Shown piece after piece: positions 10,666 to 24,718 of a DNA stretch of 34,223 nucleotides. The position numbers and the translations under genes were made by a program. This DNA is from Rhodobacter sp. (GTDB lineage: Bacteria > Pseudomonadota > Alphaproteobacteria > Rhodobacterales > Rhodobacteraceae): positions 1 to 34,223 of the forward strand of contig JADCEF010000125.1 of assembly GCA_020250445.1 (NCBI GenBank), read 5' to 3'. The first letter of the stretch is position 1; each line of letters opens with the position of its first letter. Under the pieces are notes generated by a model, which was given only the letters and a program-made list of their open reading frames with translations, made no database searches and was not told the DNA's origin.

Positions 10666-13600
10666 TTACCCCCGCCGCGCTGCCGCGATTTCAGCGACAA
10701 TGCCCATTGTTTCCACGCTGACCCGCACCACCCGCGCCAGCAGGTCCGCCACCCGGTCCTTGTGGTTGGCAAAGCGATAGGTGTTGAACTTTGCCCGGAT
10801 CGTCGGGTCTTTCGGGGTCTTTTCCTTGTGCTGGTCCAGCACCCAGTCAATGGCGCTGCGGTTGCCCAGGCGATAGTCCCAGGCGGCAGCGGGGATGCCG
10901 GAGAGCACCGTTTCGCTGTCGAGCGTGACTGTGCCCGCAGCGGGATCGGATTTCAGGATGACCTTGGGCGCAAGCCCCGCCGAGCGCGCCCGTTCGTCGG
11001 GGGTGTCGCGGCGCGTCAAGGGCCATGGCTCCACCCCCTCATACCCGATGTGCAGGTCCAAAAGGCGCTGGCCCCACCCGGCCCAAAGGCCGAAATGCGG
11101 GTGCAGCGGAATGCGCGGAAATTCCCGCTTCAGGTTGATCGCATAGGTTTCGCGCCACAGCGGATCATGCAGCGCGGCATAGACATAGGCAAAGATGCCA
11201 TCGCGGGTGACGCCCGCCGTTTTCCCGTAATGGTCGGTGAAGGTGGCCACGGCCCAGTCGGTGATATTGTCGATCCTCTCGCCGGAGGAGGTGTAGCGGT
11301 AGCGGGGGAGGGTTTGTGTACCGCCGGAACCTGGGCTAACAAAATTGTAATCCGGAATCGTATCTATTGCCAGAGAGAAGTACGGTTTCCCGGATGAATC
11401 GCCCATTAGTGTTATCGAACGAGTCTTGGCTTCCCCCATGAGAAAAATTTGCCTCGTAAGATTGGACATCTCATTAACCCATTCGTCACGATACATATTC
11501 GTCTTGAAGAACGGGCGATAGTTTGCCTCTATTATGCATTCGTTCTTGAATGAAAAATTTCTCCGCTTTTCTAGATTTCTCTTAACGGATCTTGTCCATT
11601 TAATATCATCCTTAGCCGCTATCTTGATAGCTTCAGGAGCATCAACAGCTGAGGCAGCAGCAACAGCATCATTATAACCAGAAGTGAGATAACTCATTTT
11701 TTTGATGAGTGTTTGTTGCGACAGGTCGTAAACCCAGTCATCGCGTGCAGTAACAACCCCCAACGAAAACAGCTTGAACACCGCCCGTTCCTGCCCCTTT
11801 GTCTTCGCCGCCTTGGTCCGCTTGTCCGCCACCGGGATCAGGCTGTCCCAGTCGTTGCTGGTCAGGTTGATCCAGTTGGCCGCCTTGTCCGGCACCACCC
11901 GATCAAAACCGATCTCGGACAGGCGCGTGGACCCGAGCCACGCCCGCTTGTCTTCCGCCGTGTCGAACTCGGGTCGCCGCACATAGCGGATCAGGCATTG
12001 CTTCGCGCCCTTGCGCTTGACCAGAAACGAAATCGCTACCCCGGTCTGGATGCCAAAGACGTTGTGCTTGGTGCCCGAAATTTTCGGGTTGGCCCGCACG
12101 TCGCCGCCCAGATCGACAATCCAGGCTTCCGCGAAATTCTCCTTCACGTATCTGCGGAACCCGTCGAAGGTGCGGCTGTCGATGAAGCTGCGGTTGGTGA
12201 CAAAGGCGATGATGCCGTCATCATGCACCCGGTCGAAGGACCACCGGAAAAAGCGGGCGTACATGTCATAGACCTTGGTCTTCTGCGCCGTCGAAAGCTT
12301 CACGAAGGACCGCTTGATAAGGTCATCGACCTTGGGATAGGCGCGGTTCTTGTTATTGTCGTTCTCGTTCTGCTGGTTGGCATTGTAGGGCGGGTTGCCG
12401 ATCACAACGGAAATCTTGCGGGAATTCTGCCGCCTCACCCGCTCGACGTTCTCTTCGCTCAGCGCCGCGAACAGGTCATGCTGGTGGCCCGCCTTGATGC
12501 CCAGCCCCGCCACATTGTCCAGCGTATCGACAAAACACAGGTTCGGAAACTCGGCATATTGGCCTGCCGCCGCCGCATAGGTCGCTTCGATATTCAGGTT
12601 TGCGACGTAATAGGGCAGGATCGCCACTTCGTTGGCGTGCAGCTCTTCCTTGTATTTGCGGTGCAGCGCCTGCGGCTGGCCCCGGAAATGTTCGATCAGC
12701 TCACAAATAAAGGTGCCGGTCCCCGTGGCCGGGTCCAGGATTTCCACCCCGGGTTCGATCAGCGTCTTGCCGAAATGGGTATGGCACAGCCAGTCGGCCC
12801 CTTCGATCATGAAGCGCACGATTTCATTCGGGGTATAGACCACGCCCAGCCGGTCTGCCGCCTTGGGGTTATAGACCTTGTAGAAGCCTTCGTAGATCAG
12901 CTTCAGGAACTTCTGCTTTTCCGCGTGCGATGTGATCAGCGCCGCGTTGGACTTGATCGATGCATAATAGGTCTTCAGCACATCCAGCACATTGCGCCGC
13001 ACTGACCCGGTGAAAAAGGCATCCTCCAGCCGGGACAATTCCCGCGCGATATTGTTTTCGCGGTGATACTGGCTGTCGTTGAACACCTGGGTGAAGATTT
13101 CTTCGGTCAGGATATGCTGGATCAGCATTTCCCGAACGTCCTCCTCGGTCAGCGTGGGGTTGATCGTGCCCTTGGCATGGTCCAGAAACTTCGCCGCCTG
13201 CGCTGTGAACCCCGCATTGTCGCGGTAGGCAGTGGCGATGGCGGCACGCAACCCCTCCAGGATTGCGGGCAGGTCGGCGGAAAACTGCGCCACCGCCTTG
13301 CGGAACTCGGCAATCTCGGGGCGTTCATAGTCAAAGAACAGCCGCAGCAGCCGCTCCAGCGCCTCGACATCCGTCATGGCGCAGCGCATCACCTCGACCC
13401 GGTTCTGGATCAGCACCGCCGTTGCGCTGTCTTCGAAAAGGATGTTCTCCTGCGGATAGCCCTTGCGCAGCTTCCTTTCGATCTCGCGGTCCAGAACGTC
13501 GGCGGTATCCTTTGCCTCCCAGTATCCCAGTGGCACGCGAAGTTCGTGCAGCACCGCCCCGTCCAGCTTGACGGTCTTCTTCTGTGGGGTCTGCAGGCTG

Positions 13601-13752
13601 TATTCAACCTGCAGAAACAGGTTTCGGTCGCGCGACCAGTCGCGCAGCAGGCTTTTGAACGCTTCGCGGATCACCTCTTCGGTCTGCGACCCCGAGAAGC
13701 GTCTGGTCCGGTCAATCTCCGAAAGATACCTGTTGATCAGAATCCGGCTCAT
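10666..13752 (-). CDS. Single-chain restriction-modification enzyme (type ISP/IIG-like)
   Basis: A 1028-residue fusion of nuclease, adenine methyltransferase and target recognition region. The N-terminus carries a PD-(D/E)XK-type site (KLDG Asp64, WEAKD Glu79-Ala-Lys81). A helical linker follows, then the methyltransferase with motif I DPATGTGTF (340-348) and motif IV NPPY (453-456), which predicts N6-adenine methylation. The C-terminal part resembles the recognition domain of type ISP enzymes. The long ISP enzymes (LlaGI, LlaBIII) carry a helicase between nuclease and methyltransferase; no Walker motif is seen here, so it is closer to type IIG. The frame extends 58 codons further, but family-like sequence begins at the ATG at 13752, which lacks a clear ribosome binding site. 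Residues about 664-817 lie in DNA of about 41% GC against 62-67% nearby. Confidence 0.85.
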   Translation of the reverse strand: MSRILINRYLSEIDRTRRFSGSQTEEVIREAFKSLLRDWSRDRNLFLQVEYSLQTPQKKTVKLDGAVLHELRVPLGYWEAKDTADVLDREIERKLRKGYPQENILFEDSATAVLIQNRVEVMRCAMTDVEALERLLRLFFDYERPEIAEFRKAVAQFSADLPAILEGLRAAIATAYRDNAGFTAQAAKFLDHAKGTINPTLTEEDVREMLIQHILTEEIFTQVFNDSQYHRENNIARELSRLEDAFFTGSVRRNVLDVLKTYYASIKSNAALITSHAEKQKFLKLIYEGFYKVYNPKAADRLGVVYTPNEIVRFMIEGADWLCHTHFGKTLIEPGVEILDPATGTGTFICELIEHFRGQPQALHRKYKEELHANEVAILPYYVANLNIEATYAAAAGQYAEFPNLCFVDTLDNVAGLGIKAGHQHDLFAALSEENVERVRRQNSRKISVVIGNPPYNANQQNENDNNKNRAYPKVDDLIKRSFVKLSTAQKTKVYDMYARFFRWSFDRVHDDGIIAFVTNRSFIDSRTFDGFRRYVKENFAEAWIVDLGGDVRANPKISGTKHNVFGIQTGVAISFLVKRKGAKQCLIRYVRRPEFDTAEDKRAWLGSTRLSEIGFDRVVPDKAANWINLTSNDWDSLIPVADKRTKAAKTKGQERAVFKLFSLGVVTARDDWVYDLSQQTLIKKMSYLTSGYNDAVAAASAVDAPEAIKIAAKDDIKWTRSVKRNLEKRRNFSFKNECIIEANYRPFFKTNMYRDEWVNEMSNLTRQIFLMGEAKTRSITLMGDSSGKPYFSLAIDTIPDYNFVSPGSGGTQTLPRYRYTSSGERIDNITDWAVATFTDHYGKTAGVTRDGIFAYVYAALHDPLWRETYAINLKREFPRIPLHPHFGLWAGWGQRLLDLHIGYEGVEPWPLTRRDTPDERARSAGLAPKVILKSDPAAGTVTLDSETVLSGIPAAAWDYRLGNRSAIDWVLDQHKEKTPKDPTIRAKFNTYRFANHKDRVADLLARVVRVSVETMGIVAEIAAARRG
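11300..11760 (-). other. Low-GC segment inside the R-M gene
   Basis: By hand count 11341-11700 holds 147 G or C in 360 bases (41%). The flanking lines 11821-11940 count 77 of 120 (64%). The segment codes for roughly residues 664-817, rich in Asn, Lys, Ile, Ser and Tyr, and coincides with the expected target-recognition region. The reading frame is intact across it. This looks like a swapped or foreign specificity module. Confidence 0.7.
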
Positions 13753-14138
13753 GCGACAGTCATGCAACAAGGCCCGCGCCGCTGCAATGCCTGGCAAGTG
13801 ACCGCAAAAGGGGACGTCGATGCGCCACGCGGGGTGGCCCCTGGCGATGCCCTCGCGACGGCTTTCGGCCCTGTGTTCTGGCCCTGCGACCGAAGCGGGG
13901 GCTTGCGGTTTTTCGGGGCATGGCACCCGGTTCAGGCAACCTGTCCAAGTGCCTGTCCTGCCGCCTGCACCGCTTGTGCAACCGCGTCATGTGCAACACG
14001 TCGGGCCATCGCCCCTGCCACAGGGCCACGCTGCCCCGTGGCAAACCTGTGGCCAAAGCCCCCGGCGGGCCCTTTGCCCCCGCCGGGCTGGGCACTGTCC
14101 CGCCACTGGTGCGGGCGGCACGGGTCTTTGCAGAAGCG

Positions 14139-14433
14139 TCGCGCGCAGGCGGGGGAACGCGGGTCGCGCTTCCCGGCCCCGCCCAAAGGGGCAATCCCGT
14201 TCCCCGGACCGGGAAGCGTCTCCCGGCAGGCTGGCGGTCGGATTGCTGTTTCAGCACCCCGTCAGGGACAACAGCGAACCTTTCCACCACACGCGTTCCG
14301 GCCAAGGCCATCACCCCTGGGGCCCGCGCAACGCGTGCCACCGATGCAGCGGGGCCAAAGCGCCCGGCCAGCGCCGGGTCCGGCGCTGGCCTTCGTTGCG
14401 TCTGTCCGAACGCTCCTCATGGGACCGTGGTCC
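14139..14433 (+). repeat. Dispersed repeat copy A (modules Y then X)
   Basis: Module Y (14139-14260) matches the minus strand of 23018-23140 at about 104 of 123 aligned positions, and module X (14265-14375) matches the minus strand of 23250-23358 at about 90 of 111, both by hand alignment. Here the order is Y-X; in copy B it is X-Y. X ends in a perfect 12-base stem (14366-14377 with 14380-14391), and a short GGACC-GT-GGTCC hairpin follows at 14422-14433. No coding function is evident. Confidence 0.75.
14366..14391. repeat. Perfect 12-bp inverted repeat at end of module X
   Basis: GGCCAGCGCCGG (14366-14377) is followed after GT by its exact reverse complement CCGGCGCTGGCC (14380-14391). The same arms, differing at the inner end, occur in copy B at 23179-23190 and 23248-23259 with a 57-base loop. 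Confidence 0.8.
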
Positions 14434-14518
14434 ATGACCGGGCAGCAAAACGCGCTGCGTTTCGGGGTCCGCCCGGAATTGCAAGTCGCCTTTCCGGCGG
14501 ATCAGCATCAATCCCGCC

Positions 14519-14571
14519 CGGCGAGCGGCAGGGATGCTTGTTCTGCACCCCGCTGGGGTCAGGATCAAACC
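14519..14571 (+). repeat. Degenerate third copy of the end of module Y
   Basis: The run CGGCGAGCGGCAGGGATGC, then CTTGTTCTGCACCCC and a GGATCAAACC tail, resembles the end of module Y plus the start of X (CGGCAGGCTGGCGG, then GCTGTTTCAGCACCCC and GCGAACC) with gaps. It lies 128 bases after module X of copy A. If real, copy A reads Y-X-Y, i.e. remnants of a tandem array. Identity is low and needs a proper alignment. Confidence 0.35.
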
Positions 14572-14726
14572 GATGCAGCCAAATGAGCCGATTTTCTGCC
14601 AGAGTTCGGGGGTATGGACCTGCGACCCGGTGCCACAGACGGCAGCCGAAGTCTGCGACCCTTTCAGGGAAGAATGCAGCACCTTCTTCACAGCCGCAGG
14701 CCATGAAGCCAAAGGAGCGAATCGCG

Positions 14727-15464
14727 CTAAAAAGCATTCACAAGCAGGAAGAGCGTCGCTTTCACCATAGCGTAAATGACGCCTGCCACGACAAAGATCG
14801 AGGCGGCGGCCACAGCGAAACCGCCAAGCACCCAGGCCCCGTCCCGTTCCAGAACGCCCAGCGAGATCAGGCTGATTGCGACCGCAGGCAGCATGTTGCC
14901 GAAGGGGATCGGCAGCATCAGAACAACAGCAAGCAACAGACACACGGCCCCGATGACATTCTGTGCGCGATCCTTGACAAAAAAGGAAAGGCGCGGCCTG
15001 AGCAGTTTTTCCGCCCGGGCCAGCAGCGGTGTCGCGCGCGAGATGGTCTGCGCGAAATCATCGCGGCTCATCGAGCGGTTGGCGATCACGGGCGGCAGCC
15101 AGGGCAGGCGGCCCAGCATCATCTGGGCCGAAAGATAGACCAGCGGCAGACCCAGGATGCCAGAGGTGCCGGGCGGTGTCGGCAGGACGTTCGGCAGGGC
15201 GAAGAGCAGCAGAAGCGCCCCCGTGGCCCGCCCTTCCATCGCCACCAGCAGGTCCGATACAGAAATGCGCGTGCGGGTTTCGTCGCTGCCGATTTCGTCC
15301 AGCAATTCGGACAGGCGCTTGCGCTGCGGTTGCGGTCGGCGGCCGAAGCGGCGCAGGCGGCCTGCGATACCCTCTGGTGTCGCATCATCCTGCAGGTCGT
15401 CGCCATCCTCGTGGTCGGGGCCATCGTCGTCGCGCGAAGAAGACTGCTTTGAAGAATCAGGCAT
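14727..15464 (-). CDS. exoD: ExoD family membrane protein
   Basis: A 245-residue inner-membrane protein of the ExoD family (exopolysaccharide synthesis, first described in Sinorhizobium). The first 50 residues are acidic and probably disordered (many Asp, Ser, Glu). Then come RLSELLDEI, the conserved ALLLLFALPNVLPTPPGTS segment with its proline-rich turn, and several C-terminal helices. The chosen ATG at 15464 matches the family-like N-terminus; an upstream in-frame extension has no support and the ribosome binding site is weak. It lies 161 bases after terC on the same strand. No polysaccharide gene cluster surrounds it, so a role in exopolysaccharide here is uncertain. Confidence 0.85.
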   Translation of the reverse strand: MPDSSKQSSSRDDDGPDHEDGDDLQDDATPEGIAGRLRRFGRRPQPQRKRLSELLDEIGSDETRTRISVSDLLVAMEGRATGALLLLFALPNVLPTPPGTSGILGLPLVYLSAQMMLGRLPWLPPVIANRSMSRDDFAQTISRATPLLARAEKLLRPRLSFFVKDRAQNVIGAVCLLLAVVLMLPIPFGNMLPAVAISLISLGVLERDGAWVLGGFAVAAASIFVVAGVIYAMVKATLFLLVNAF

Positions 15465-15606
15465 GGGCAAAGGGTTCTTTCGGTTTCGGCCATGCCAAGG
15501 TGGACCGCCCGACGCAAGAGGGCAAGCCGATTGCAGCGTGCATGCCTTGCGGCACAAGGCGCGGATCGTCCGGCCAGGCCCGGGCCGGTCGCCTGTGCGA
15601 CAGACC

Positions 15607-15621
15607 CGGGCAGGATGCCCG
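15607..15621 (-). terminator. Hairpin after terC
   Basis: CGGGCA and TGCCCG pair around a 3-base loop starting 4 bases after the terC stop. A second CCCGGG-based nested stem overlaps the arms (15575-15610). No T-run is present, so it is only terminator-like. Confidence 0.3.
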
Positions 15622-15625
15622 CGCT

Positions 15626-16618
15626 TTACTTTGCCTTCAGTGCGTCCGGCCTGCTGTCCCGGCTTTTCCACAGCGAAAAGACGATGCCGGCCGCAAGAAT
15701 TGCAAAGGTGATGCCCAGCGACCAGGACGCAGGGAATTTTTCCCATCCGGCCAGGTCCGCCACGAAGATTTTCGAGCCGATGAACACCAGCAGGACCGCC
15801 AGCGCGTACTTGAGATAGTGGAACCGGTGCAGAACCGCCGCCAACGCAAAATACAGCGCCCGCAAACCAAGGATCGCGAAGATGTTGGAGGTGTAGACGA
15901 TGTAGGGATCTGTGGTGATTGCAAACACCGCGGGCACCGAATCCACCGCGAAGACCAGATCGGCAATTTCGATCAGCACCAGCGCCAGAAACAGCGGCGT
16001 CATCCAGCGCACCGGTCTGCCTGTCTTTGGATCGGGCTGGATCACGAAGAAATCATGGCCATGCAGCTTGTCGGTCACGCGGAACCGCTTGCGCATGAAC
16101 CGAAGCACGGGATTCGTGTTCAGGTCCATTTCCTTGTCATCGGTGACCAGCATCTTGATGCCGGTAAAGATCAGGAAGGCGGCAAAGATGTACAGGATCC
16201 AGCCGTATTGTGCCACCAGCGTGGCCCCCAGTCCGATCATGATGCCGCGCAGCACGATCACGCCAAGGATGCCCCAGAACAGCACGCGGTGCTGATAGAT
16301 CCGGGGAATGGCGAAGTAGCTGAAGATCAGCGCGATGACAAAGACGTTGTCCAGCGCCAGGGTCTTTTCAACCACGAAGGCGGTCAGGTATTCTGCCGCC
16401 GATTGCCCGCCGAACTGGTACCAAACGAAGCCGCCGAAGCCGACGCCAAGCGTGATGTACAGCGCGGAAAGCCGCAGGCTTTCGGCAACGCCGATCTCAT
16501 GATCCTCCTTGTTCAGCACGCCAAGGTCAAACAGCAGCAGCGCCAGAACGATGCCGACAAACGCGAACCAGAGCCAAAGCGGGGTTCCAAGAAACAGGGT
16601 GAAAAGCAGGGTATCCAC
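15626..16618 (-). CDS. TerC family integral membrane protein
   Basis: A 330-residue TerC/Alx-family protein with about eight to nine membrane helices. The two acidic membrane motifs of the family are present: EKTLALDNVFVI in the first half and LIEIADLVFAVDSVPAVFA in the second. Relatives are implicated in metal (manganese) export and tellurite resistance; the ion handled here is not shown. Two starts are possible. TTG at 16624 directly abuts the ribosome binding site GAAGGAAGG, while GTG at 16618 stands 6 bases after it and is preferred. I looked for the yybP-ykoY manganese riboswitch often found before such genes and did not see it. Confidence 0.9.
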   Translation of the reverse strand: MDTLLFTLFLGTPLWLWFAFVGIVLALLLFDLGVLNKEDHEIGVAESLRLSALYITLGVGFGGFVWYQFGGQSAAEYLTAFVVEKTLALDNVFVIALIFSYFAIPRIYQHRVLFWGILGVIVLRGIMIGLGATLVAQYGWILYIFAAFLIFTGIKMLVTDDKEMDLNTNPVLRFMRKRFRVTDKLHGHDFFVIQPDPKTGRPVRWMTPLFLALVLIEIADLVFAVDSVPAVFAITTDPYIVYTSNIFAILGLRALYFALAAVLHRFHYLKYALAVLLVFIGSKIFVADLAGWEKFPASWSLGITFAILAAGIVFSLWKSRDSRPDALKAK

Positions 16619-22071: not shown

Positions 22072-22764
22072 ATGGCCCGCCCCGACCGTCTGTTTCGCCT
22101 GCTCGATACGCTGCGGCGGCTGCCGCAGCCGGTCACGGCGGCGCGGCTGGCCGAAGAGACCGAAGTCTCGCTGCGCACGCTGTACCGCGATATTGAAACG
22201 CTGCGGGCGGGTGGCGCGCTGATCGACGGCGCGCCTGGCCTGGGTTACACCCTGACCGAAGACCCCGCCCTGCCGCCGCAGATGTTCACCCGGCTGGAGG
22301 TGGAGGCACTGGTGCTTGGCCTGGCAGAAGTGCGCTTTGCGGGCGATCCGGCGCTGGTAAAGGCCGCCGATGCCGCGTTGGCGAAAATTACCGCAACTCT
22401 GCCGGAACGGGTGCAGCGGCAGGCGATTCATGCCGTGCAGATGAGCTACCGGTTTGAACGCCGCGCCCCCCCGCCCGCCTTTCTGCCGCTGTTGCGCACC
22501 GCCTGCTGGGAAGAACAGGCACTGCGCATCCGCTATGCCGATCAGGCTGGGGCAATGAGTGACCGGGTGATCTGGCCGCTGTCGGTGGTGTTTCTGGACC
22601 GGTCGCTGCTGCTGCTGGCCTTCTGCCGGTTGCGCATGGATTTCCGGCGCTTTCAACTGCATCGTATCACAGAGGTGCAGGAAACCGGTGAAAGCTTTCG
22701 TCCCCGCCGGGTGCCGCTGCTGCGCGATTTCATCCGCCACTTGCGTGGTGGACGGGGCGGTTAA
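22072..22764 (+). CDS. YafY-type WYL domain transcriptional regulator
   Basis: A 230-residue regulator with an N-terminal winged helix-turn-helix of the HTH_11 type (RLFRLLDTLRRLPQPVTAARLAEE, shown here in pieces: TAARLAEETEVSLRTLYRDIE is the recognition half) and a C-terminal WYL-like ligand-binding domain (RIRYADQAG, VIWPLSVVFLDRSLLLLAFCRLRMDFRRFQLHR region). This architecture is common for repressors encoded divergently from a metabolic or detoxification gene, here the GST. No clear ribosome binding site precedes the ATG at 22072; the repeats at 22043-22070 fill the space. The ligand is not known. Confidence 0.86.
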   Translation: MARPDRLFRLLDTLRRLPQPVTAARLAEETEVSLRTLYRDIETLRAGGALIDGAPGLGYTLTEDPALPPQMFTRLEVEALVLGLAEVRFAGDPALVKAADAALAKITATLPERVQRQAIHAVQMSYRFERRAPPPAFLPLLRTACWEEQALRIRYADQAGAMSDRVIWPLSVVFLDRSLLLLAFCRLRMDFRRFQLHRITEVQETGESFRPRRVPLLRDFIRHLRGGRGG

Positions 22765-23016: not shown

Positions 23017-23017
23017 C

Positions 23018-23358
23018 AGGGTGCCAAAAAAGCAATCCGACCGCCTGCCTGCCGGGAAAATCCTTCCGGTCCGGGGATAGGGATTGCCCCCTTGGGCGGG
23101 ATCAGGAAACGCGACCCGCGTTTCCCCCGCCCGCGCGCGACGGTGCCCTGTGGACCGGCGGGTCCAGGCACCACGAATGGCCAGCGCCCGGCGCGGCGGG
23201 GGCGAAACGCCCGACATGGGCGGGGCGGGCGATGGCCGGGGCCGGGGCGGGCGCTGGCCGGGGGCTGTTGCCCCACCGCATCGGTTGCACGCGCCACGCA
23301 GGCCCCGGAAGATGGCCTGGGCAGGAACGCGTGTTGCGGAAGGTTTCGCTGTTGTCCC
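23018..23358 (-). repeat. Dispersed repeat copy B (modules X then Y)
   Basis: Read on the minus strand, module X (23358 down to 23250) comes first, then a hairpin-rich spacer, then module Y (23140 down to 23018). Beyond Y, a short GCGAACCCTTCAC (about 23010-22998) resembles the start of X again. Both modules match copy A at 14139-14375 at roughly 82-85% by hand. X starts about 10 bases beyond the stop codon of the M16 gene. The spacer keeps GGACC/GGTCC arms (about 23152-23165) as in copy A. Confidence 0.75.
23179..23259. repeat. 12-bp inverted repeat with 57-base loop in copy B
   Basis: GGCCAGCGCCCG (23179-23190) and its exact complement CGGGCGCTGGCC (23248-23259) enclose a 57-base GC-rich loop that itself contains a GGGCG-AAA-CGCCC stem. 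It corresponds to the 2-base-loop palindrome of copy A. Confidence 0.75.
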
Positions 23359-23368
23359 CGCTGGCAGA

Positions 23369-24718
23369 CTATGGGGCAGGCACGCCTTCAGAACCTTGCC
23401 GATCCGCCGAATCCACGCCTTCCGGCTGGCCCACAACCACAAAATGCAGCTTGTCCGGCTGGAACAGCCGCGCGGCCACCCGCTTGACATCGTCCAGCGT
23501 CACCGCTTCGACCCTGGCGTTCCGCGTGGCCGGATAATCGATGGGAAGACCGTCCATCTGCAAGCCGACAAGGATATCGGCAATCTCGCTGTTGCCGTCA
23601 AACCGCAACGGATAGGACCCGGTCATATAGGTCTTCGTTGCGGCCAGCTCTTCCGCCGTGATGCCTTCGGTCGCCAGACGCTGCCATTCCTGACGGATCA
23701 ACGCGATCGATTGGGCAACTGTGGCGTTCGCGGTGCCCATCTGGCCCATATAGGCCTGGGCGAAATCCATGGGGGCCAGAAAGCTTGACACCCCATAGGT
23801 CAGCCCGCGCTTTTCGCGCAGTTCCGTCATCAGCCGGGCAGAGAATCGCTCGCCGCCCAGAACCTCGTTCAGGATAAAGGCGGCGAAGAAATCGGGGTCG
23901 TCCAGCCTCAGGCCTTCCTGCCCGAACAGGATCACCGACTGCGGCGAGGGGTAATCCACCACGGTGACCCCGCCGCCCAGGTGCCAGCCCGCGACAGCGG
24001 GCATCTGCCGGCCCACTGCGGGCAGGTCGCCCAGAAGACGGTCCAAAAGCGGGCCAAGCTCGGCCACCGAAATGTCGCCCGCAGCCGCCACATAGACCCG
24101 GTCGCGCGTCATCGTTGCCTTGTGCGCGTCCAGCACATCGGCCCGGGTCAGGGCCGCCACACTGTCCGGCGTCCCCTCGCCGGCGCTGCCATAGGGGTGC
24201 CCGGCAAAGGCCATCTCGTCGAAGCGCCGCATGGCAAGGACCCCCGGATCCTGCGCATCAGATGCAAGGCCCGCCAGAATCAGGCCCTTGACCCGTTCGA
24301 CCGCATCCTCATCAAAGCGGGGCTCGATCAGGGCGCTGCGCAGCAGGTCAATCGCCGCGTCGCGGTTTTCCGTCAGGAACCGTGCCGAAACGCCGATCGA
24401 ATCCTGCCCGGCGGAAAAGCCGAAACCGGCCGCCAGCGCATCGCGCGCCTCGGCGAAACCCTGCGCATCCAATGCGCCGGCCCCCTCTTCCAGCGTTGCG
24501 GCCATCAGATTGACCGCCCCGCGCGACCCCGGCAGGTCAAGGCTGGTGCCCCCCCTGAAGCGGATTTCCAGCGCGGTAAACGGGATATTGTGATCTTCCA
24601 CCAGCCAGGCGGTGATGCCGCCGGGCGAGGTTACGTTCTGAATGGCGATTTCGGCGCGCGCGGGAAACGCGGCCAGGACCAGCGCAACCACAGCCCATTT
24701 CATCACGGTCACAGTCAC
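23369..24718 (-). CDS. M16 family peptidase-like protein, non-catalytic partner
   Basis: A 449-residue two-domain M16 (pitrilysin/MPP-like) protein. It lacks the HxxEH zinc motif in the first domain (the region reads LPGSRGAVNLMAATLEEGAG), but keeps the C-terminal M16 features: GQEGLRLDDPDFFAAFILNEVLGG region (in pieces) and RLMTELREKRGLTYGVSS. In heterodimeric M16 enzymes one subunit carries zinc and the other this R/Y-containing C-domain, so it probably pairs with the product of the gene just upstream. The start is GTG at 24718, overlapping the previous stop as GTGA, or ATG at 24703, which gives a cleaner signal peptide (MKWAVVALVLAAFPARA). Expected in the periplasm. Confidence 0.88.
   Translation of the reverse strand: MTVTVMKWAVVALVLAAFPARAEIAIQNVTSPGGITAWLVEDHNIPFTALEIRFRGGTSLDLPGSRGAVNLMAATLEEGAGALDAQGFAEARDALAAGFGFSAGQDSIGVSARFLTENRDAAIDLLRSALIEPRFDEDAVERVKGLILAGLASDAQDPGVLAMRRFDEMAFAGHPYGSAGEGTPDSVAALTRADVLDAHKATMTRDRVYVAAAGDISVAELGPLLDRLLGDLPAVGRQMPAVAGWHLGGGVTVVDYPSPQSVILFGQEGLRLDDPDFFAAFILNEVLGGERFSARLMTELREKRGLTYGVSSFLAPMDFAQAYMGQMGTANATVAQSIALIRQEWQRLATEGITAEELAATKTYMTGSYPLRFDGNSEIADILVGLQMDGLPIDYPATRNARVEAVTLDDVKRVAARLFQPDKLHFVVVGQPEGVDSADRQGSEGVPAP

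Follow-up and report, generated by a model that had tools for sequence, protein, structure and literature searches.

A Pair of Inverted Intergenic Repeats in Rhodobacter sp. as Parts of a Probable MITE Family with an Inner Hairpin Cassette

Introduction

A 34,223-nucleotide stretch of Rhodobacter sp. DNA (contig JADCEF010000125.1, positions 1 to 34,223; hereafter the window) contains two intergenic repeats, A and B, about 9 kb apart, which share two sequence modules, X and Y, on opposite strands and in swapped order: A reads Y-X, while B reads X-Y. What kind of sequence leaves such a pair behind? An earlier note, made from the letters alone, had pointed to what a decayed XYXY tandem array or a circularly permuted element would leave behind, and had seen no family signature in either copy. 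Here we describe the family to which both repeats belong, its ends, target and copy number, and the hairpin cassette that it encloses.

Two Repeats, Three Copies of One Element

The two shared modules were recovered by blastn over the whole window, with the strands and the order that had been described. Positions 14058-14259 of A matched the minus strand of 23221-23019 (157/207 identical, 76%, E 6e-35), positions 14265-14395 matched the minus strand of 23358-23230 (105/131 identical, 80%, E 9e-27), and no further repeat pair besides A/B was found in the whole window at 1e-4. Within the module limits of the earlier note, the identity of about 85% given for Y was reproduced, while X reached about 80% rather than 82%. 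The genome-wide search which that note had proposed gave 73 matches for the A stretch and 74 for the B stretch (E ≤ 0.01) in the genome of origin (G000; 3,482,496 bases in 125 contigs); these counts, and those given below for the inner part and the cassette, are lower limits, as no more than 40 candidates were scored in each genome. Because the modules match 73-74 places in G000, they are members of a dispersed family. X and Y come from the left and right portions, respectively, of a single transposable element, of which the window holds three copies with the following features and neighboring genes.

13933..14261, plus strand: element A1, left end strongly decayed, right end clear (consensus comparison, profile search, TIR pattern)
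14240..14261, plus strand: right terminal inverted repeat (TIR) of A1, GGATTGCTGTTTCAGCACCCCG
14263..14552, plus strand: element A2, a second copy directly after A1, about 40 bp of its left end missing
23017..23398, minus strand: element B, one whole copy of 382 bp, left end 23398, right end 23017
23017..23039, minus strand: right TIR of B
23379..23398, minus strand: left TIR of B, CAAGGTTCTGAAGGCGTGCC, through which the M16 peptidase gene reads as codons
23094..23132, no strand assigned: hairpin H1 of the B cassette (predicted fold; helices covary in other copies)
23179..23237, no strand assigned: hairpin H4 (nested) of the B cassette, degenerate (alignment; consensus helix)
23369..24718, minus strand: M16 peptidase gene, last codons and stop in the left arm of B (Pfam PF05193, E 3e-30)
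22072..22764, plus strand: WYL/HTH regulator gene, convergent, on the other side of B (Pfam PF13280, PF08279)
14727..15746, minus strand: ExoD gene to the right of A (Pfam PF06055, E 2e-56)
10666-13926, minus strand: type ISP restriction-modification enzyme gene adjoining A (Type_ISP_C, ISP coupler and Eco57I/N6 methylase domains)

The left limit of A1 (~13933) was read by eye from CAGGCAACCTGTCCAAGTGCC, while its right end was located by profile search and also by the TIR pattern at 14246-14261. A2 begins, by eye, at a point corresponding to ~40 bp inside the left end of B, and its decayed right end (GGATGCTTGTTCTGCACCCCG) was located by profile search as L001_1921. Of module Y, the portion beyond hairpin H1 on the right forms the right end of the element; module X comprises the inner left arm and the beginning of the cassette. 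This accounts for the swapped order, since Y comes from the right portion of A1 (or B) and X from the left portion of A2 (or B). The module limits drawn earlier cut across the element boundaries; A1 starts before 14139, and A2 continues past 14433.

These results bear on both readings that had been proposed for the pair, as well as on chance similarity of GC-rich sequence, which is ruled out by the E-value of 6e-35 within the window and by at least 63 matches at 1e-6 in G000. Tandem arrays do occur at other loci of the genome, as the XYXY idea would have it, but the part repeated there is the inner hairpin cassette, and the Y-X order at A is that of two adjoining copies, not the product of circular permutation. 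Since 19 aligned copies share one order between fixed ends, and no copy with parts permuted between intact ends was seen among the copies aligned, we regard remnants of an XYXY array or a circular permutation as scarcely credible. The absence of a family signature did not hold either, as the family has TIRs.

Ends, Layout and Copy Number of the Family

The ends of the family are inverted repeats (CAGGGTGCTGAAAAAG...), the left end beginning CAGGGTGCTGAAAAAGTGCC... and the right end, read inward, CAGGGTGCTGAAACAGCAATCC.... TIRs are thus present at both ends, as in a MITE, and the element is too short to encode a transposase, as is also typical of a MITE. In 19 of 25 aligned copies the layout is left TIR, left arm, H2, H3, H4, linker, H1, right arm and right TIR; the other six (L139, L209, L220, L229, L233, L235) stand in the alignment in reverse orientation, which lowers its quality and leaves the ends unaffected. 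Two copies (L208 and L029) are without part of the cassette. Single-cassette forms measure ~240-380 bp (307-382 bp for the 25 aligned copies), and the distance between the two ends is 159-373 bp in 28 of 33 pairs and 608-830 bp in the remaining five.

Profile searches yielded 59 distinct right ends, 52 in G000 loci and seven in loci of relatives. By eye, an inverted copy of the end (CAGGGTGCTGAAAA...) lies upstream of ~23 of the 59, mostly 240-375 bp away, and many of the remaining right ends sit in copies cut off by contig ends. A 16-nt TIR pattern with at most two mismatches matched 125, 105, 64, and 90 times in G000 and its relatives G003, G004, and G005, as compared with 0, 0, 2, and 1 times for the same pattern read backward; in G001, G002, and G006, which are of the same genus, the numbers were 11, 11, and 8 with a backward control of 1, 5, and 5. 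When three mismatches were allowed in G000, 292 matches stood against 51 of the control. The inner part matched at 1e-6 at least 63, 69, 87, and 73 times in G000, G003, G004, and G005, and not at all in G001, G002, and G006. In a scan of named genomes, one exact right-end form was found in 26 stretches, 17 of which came from metagenome-assembled genomes called Rhodobacter sp. (JADCEL, JADCDI, JADCEN), the remaining nine being single matches in other organisms.

Tandem inner units were detected with Tandem Repeats Finder at five of ten loci tested, with a period of 239-251 bp and 1.8-3.7 copies, array lengths being lower limits since contig ends cut many copies. The repeating unit at these loci consists of stacked hairpins. 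Single and multiple cassettes therefore occur between the same ends, in the form end module, inner module n times, end module.

Short stretches between element-like ends were observed at L231 1056-1214 (G003; 159 bp) and L076 1112-1353 (G000; 242 bp), and ~135 bp at the counterpart of the L222 site in G004 (contig C67, 16932-17066) start with a TIR match; all three are perhaps deletion forms without most of the cassette. Another copy (L207 1257-3750, G000 contig C5) is split by an insertion of ~2 kb with inverted ends of its own (GTAGTGTCTCAGTTTGAA...), which by eye carries a putative XRE/ImmA pair.

Empty Sites and Target Duplication

The joined flanks of 12 G000 copies were searched for in six relatives. 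Three of the 12 (L018, L026, and L013) aligned across the junction, at an identity of only 79-86%, and in each case the joined query was longer than the relative by a net four bases. At L018, CTGA/CTCA at the ends correspond to GTCA in G003 and G004; at L013, TTAA is present twice, with one 4-bp gap vs. G005; and at L026, CCAA is present twice, with two 2-bp gaps vs. G003, plus a 10-bp gap elsewhere. The other nine joined flanks gave one-sided or split matches, which are informative neither way. Because the empty sites are a net 4 bp shorter, these copies are insertions with a 4-bp target duplication, as expected of a MITE, and the empty sites are the main proof of such insertion. One-ended or rolling-circle movement, which a fixed right end with ragged left ends would suggest, was set aside in view of the left TIR and the 4-bp gains.

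Most copies no longer show this duplication. Exact agreement of the 4-bp flanks was found in 5 of 36 rows vs. 1.3 in permutations (p 0.006), or in 4 of 31 vs. 1.0 (p 0.013) once five rows were dropped, namely the second entries of L016, L026, L076, and L212, which had been counted in both orientations, and L127, which looks spurious. Matching 4-bp flanks were absent in the other 27 of the 31 rows, inverted agreement was equally frequent (4/31, two of these being the palindrome TTAA), and no full agreement at length 3, 5, 6, or 8 was seen in the 36 rows.

The flanks also point to a target preference. In row sets that include some repeated loci, right flanks are mostly Y-Y-R-R (94, 105, 94, and 96 of 118 rows, position by position) and left flanks mostly Y-T-R-R (35, 29, 36, and 38 of 41). 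Left flanks favor YTRR and right flanks YYAR, an inverted symmetry which is not predicted by plain duplication of YTAR; the targets at the empty sites, of the TTAA, CCAA, and CTGA/CTCA type, have the length of 4 bp but are not strictly YTAR.

Gene Ends and the M16 Peptidase Tail

At 11 of the 59 right ends, the element lies directly against the stop codon of the top-scoring frame, these stops being predicted by a codon model trained on 14 long window ORFs, not all of them verified. The 11 ends represent nine sites, owing to the orthologous pairs L019/L080 and L069/L081, and include L077 despite a listed distance of 2, since its match ended one base early. A G003 copy (L139) abuts the stop codons of convergent frames on both sides. 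At L002, L017, and L069 the same stop codon is present in relatives without the element at that point, indicating that the stop codon is native; at the L002 site the element is present in G003 and absent in G004, G005, G001, and G006. Beyond the L017 junction, homology to G003, G004, and G005 is gone except for a 37-bp match in the G003 locus, so a rearrangement occurred there as well. Stop-codon targeting through translation is probably superfluous as an explanation, because a TRR-like target would already favor stop codons.

The M16 peptidase gene takes its final codons from element B; its frame enters the left TIR at 23398 and stops at 23369. In G001, G002, and G006, which are without the family, homology to this gene extends to 23418, 23415, and 23403, shortly ahead of stop codons of their own, as read by eye. 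The in-frame tail is shared by G003, G004, and G005 with substitutions and no indel over 98-100 aligned bases. Judging from these sequences, B presumably inserted at or next to the M16 stop codon, and the gene would later have adopted the TIR to encode its C-terminus. In four species, the predicted M16 peptidase ends in a short tail that derives from the left inverted repeat of B (23369-23398).

The Hairpin Cassette Within and Beyond the Genus

Inside the MITE the cassette reads, from left to right, H2-H3-H4-linker-H1, with a period near 240 bp where it is tandem. Element B matched in 11 of 394 genomes of the bacterial family at E 1e-8, in a survey that scored two candidates per genome and thereby undercounts copies in other genera. 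With the cassette from one of these 11 genomes as the query, matches were obtained in nine of 13 genomes, which had been chosen from the earlier matches plus the genus of G000: at least 76 in G000, at least 46 in G253, at least 42 each in G211 and G201, and from at least 3 to at least 15 in five more, with none in G320, G001, G002, and G006. Alignments of 24 copies from G253 and 13 from G211 showed the unit H1-linker-H4-H3-linker-H2 and no conserved TIR. At 56 loci of other genera, the TIR pattern with three mismatches gave 4 matches vs. 5 for the backward control; by comparison, it gave 44 matches in 30 of 30 G000 loci. In G253 (L353-L372) and G211 (L373-L385) we thus observed a hairpin cassette of ~205 bp, with more than 40 matches per genome, without the ends of the MITE.

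The copies have strong predicted folds. In an alignment of 22 cassettes from eight genera, a 52-pair structure had 96.0% standard pairs; the 22 come from 25 stretches, and leaving out L342 (cut by a contig end) and the degenerate L016 and L031 (the latter being element B) favors clean pairing. Both-sided changes were found at 13 of the 52 pairs (65 of 1125 cells), which was equaled in 0 of 500 shuffles, and sliding the partners lowered pairing to 40-52%; the structure was written by hand after RNAalifold's weak outer pairs had been dropped and is favored by its control (b) for that reason. One of the five measures, the number of further pair types, was not above chance (32 vs. 30.0 in shuffles; 91/500). 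Most of the paired changes separate genera, so that few events are counted in many rows, and H4 is nearly invariant. That the cassette helices are maintained by paired changes across several genera calls for a function to be sought. Folded arrays behind stop codons may act on mRNA 3' ends.

Origin and Mobilization

Taken together, the family is best explained as a MITE with an inner hairpin cassette, which in some copies is tandem, and we put the probability of this reading at roughly 0.85. Its copies would be moved in trans by a DDE transposase of the IS5 type. This link is based on the length of the duplication, the target and a resemblance of the TIRs, the element end GGTGCTGAAAAAG being similar to the end of IS5. 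Since the stop codons TAA, TAG, and TGA fit a degenerate YYRR-like target, some harmless insertions would come to lie directly behind a gene and become its 3' untranslated region. The cassette may be an older REP-like unit of Rhodobacteraceae that was picked up by the MITE, and its tandem growth could have come later, through unequal recombination or slippage. More tentatively, and at somewhat less than even odds, we suggest that an IS5-like MITE of one clade took in an old hairpin cassette, whose shape is kept across genera by selection or by movement of its own; in that clade the cassette would spread both by transposition that favors stop codons and by multiplying in tandem into satellite-like intergenic arrays, the ends becoming new C-termini.

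The search for a mobilizer was based on PF01609, which had 42 matches in G000, G003, G004, and G005. No transposase with family ends was found around 41 of them (all but G005:C101), a weak absence since these are draft genomes, and among the PF01609 loci of the four drafts no autonomous IS had matching ends. TIR-like pairs were seen at three of 50 scanned loci (L178, L191, and L277), each needing the maximum of six edits allowed for the two ends together; none is convincing, and L277 alone is serious, as a distant candidate. L277 369-1853 (G000 contig C2) is an IS1182-family element (NF033551, 8e-88), whose TIRs agree at 19 of 20 bases and which is set in a C/G-rich palindromic site. A plasmid-borne origin was considered and found no match in PLSDB, and no viral contig had the exact left-TIR pattern.

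Derivation of the MITE from an IS1182-family element instead of the IS5 group is suggested by the TIR of this G000:C2 element (GGGGCTGTTGAAGAAG), which by eye shares 11 of 16 positions with the MITE end. Such agreement is weak, and IS1272 of the IS1182 family replaces stem-loops without a target site duplication (PMC5678879), whereas 4 bp are duplicated here; we therefore hold this origin to be rather unlikely. The cassette outside the genus is REP-like in look, and the high copy number, the stacked hairpins, the intergenic place and the arrays would all suit repeats of the REP/BIME type that a REP-associated tyrosine transposase (RAYT) mobilizes. However, the family has TIRs and 4-bp duplications, which are not known as features of RAYT-moved repeats, and PF01797 was not found in G000 by a search that was positive in 5 of 14 controls, including Caulobacter. 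A RAYT is hence unlikely for the MITE, to which we allow it only a very slim chance, and stays a candidate for the cassette of the other genera.

It could also be argued that the family is not mobile at all but a structured RNA or terminator that selection maintains at gene ends, as it sits at stop codons with strong folds and compensatory changes in the cassette. In the right end (52 of 59 aligned, the nearly complete ones), G-U exceeded A-C by 173 to 87 cells over all 45 predicted pairs, but this excess comes from three weak pairs picked by the folding program for G-U; the remaining 42 pairs, at least half Watson-Crick, make the fairer count and gave 88 to 82. There is thus no clear sign of RNA-level selection on the right end from this comparison. 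Rfam gave no match at E ≤ 0.5 in three loci, and five matches in the window stretch, the best at E 0.89 and all below the gathering scores. As the empty sites with target duplication indicate mobility, a non-mobile RNA or terminator is improbable.

Contig Breaks and Gene Neighborhoods

Contigs break at the arrays, with matches in the first 200 bases of at least 17 G000 contigs by hand count, which is a likely reason for the many breaks in the clade's draft genomes. Near A, homology to G003, G004, and G005 extends from the exoD side to 14649-14727, where that gene ends or shortly past it, and the type ISP restriction gene was not found beside exoD at the loci examined in these three genomes. 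A 442-bp match to the type ISP gene (93%) is present near the start of another G004 contig (C26), which indicates that the neighborhood was rearranged rather than that the gene was newly acquired there. The blocks to the left and right of B are 25 kb apart on one contig in G004, while in G003 both run out near contig ends and are perhaps joined through an array missing from the assembly. The repeats coincide with breaks of gene neighborhood, either as their cause or as mere occupants. What began as an odd pair of repeats is now a family whose ends, target and copy number are defined.

Comparison with Known Systems

We found no description of such an element in Rhodobacteraceae among the top results of open-licence PubMed Central, and Rhodobacter and Paracoccus are absent from the main text of a survey of REP sequences (PMC12306157). 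The family resembles REP/BIME sequences in its dispersed intergenic hairpin units, and the cassette of the other genera has this look (PMC3733652), but unlike REP/BIME with RAYT, G000 has no RAYT. It shares with the IS5 group a 4-bp target duplication, which in IS5 is that of a YTAR target (PMC10359306), and differs in having no transposase, a looser target (YYRR) and no autonomous partner found.

The nearest precedents are the pneumococcal BOX element and BrickBuilt of Porphyromonas. BOX of Streptococcus pneumoniae and S. suis consists of boxA, tandem boxB and boxC, and in S. suis the same boxB module is found between different end modules (PMC3049150). Like BOX, the present family is small, intergenic and MITE-like, with fixed end modules and a variable tandem inner module (PMC3049150); unlike BOX, it belongs to another phylum, and it has a unit of ~240 bp with several hairpins as well as 4-bp duplications at empty sites. 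This likeness is one of form, not drawn from sequence comparison. The BrickBuilt MITE of Porphyromonas gingivalis encloses a tandem repeat between a leader and a tail, with IS5-family-like TIRs and no transposase; its unit is 23 nt long, with 19 copies in one strain (PMC4596501). Here too a tandem repeat is enclosed between ends with TIRs and no transposase lies inside, whereas the unit is a hairpin cassette of ~240 bp that also occurs outside the MITE in other genera. Besides BOX and BrickBuilt, the Rhodobacter family would thus probably be a further bacterial MITE wrapped round a tandem array.
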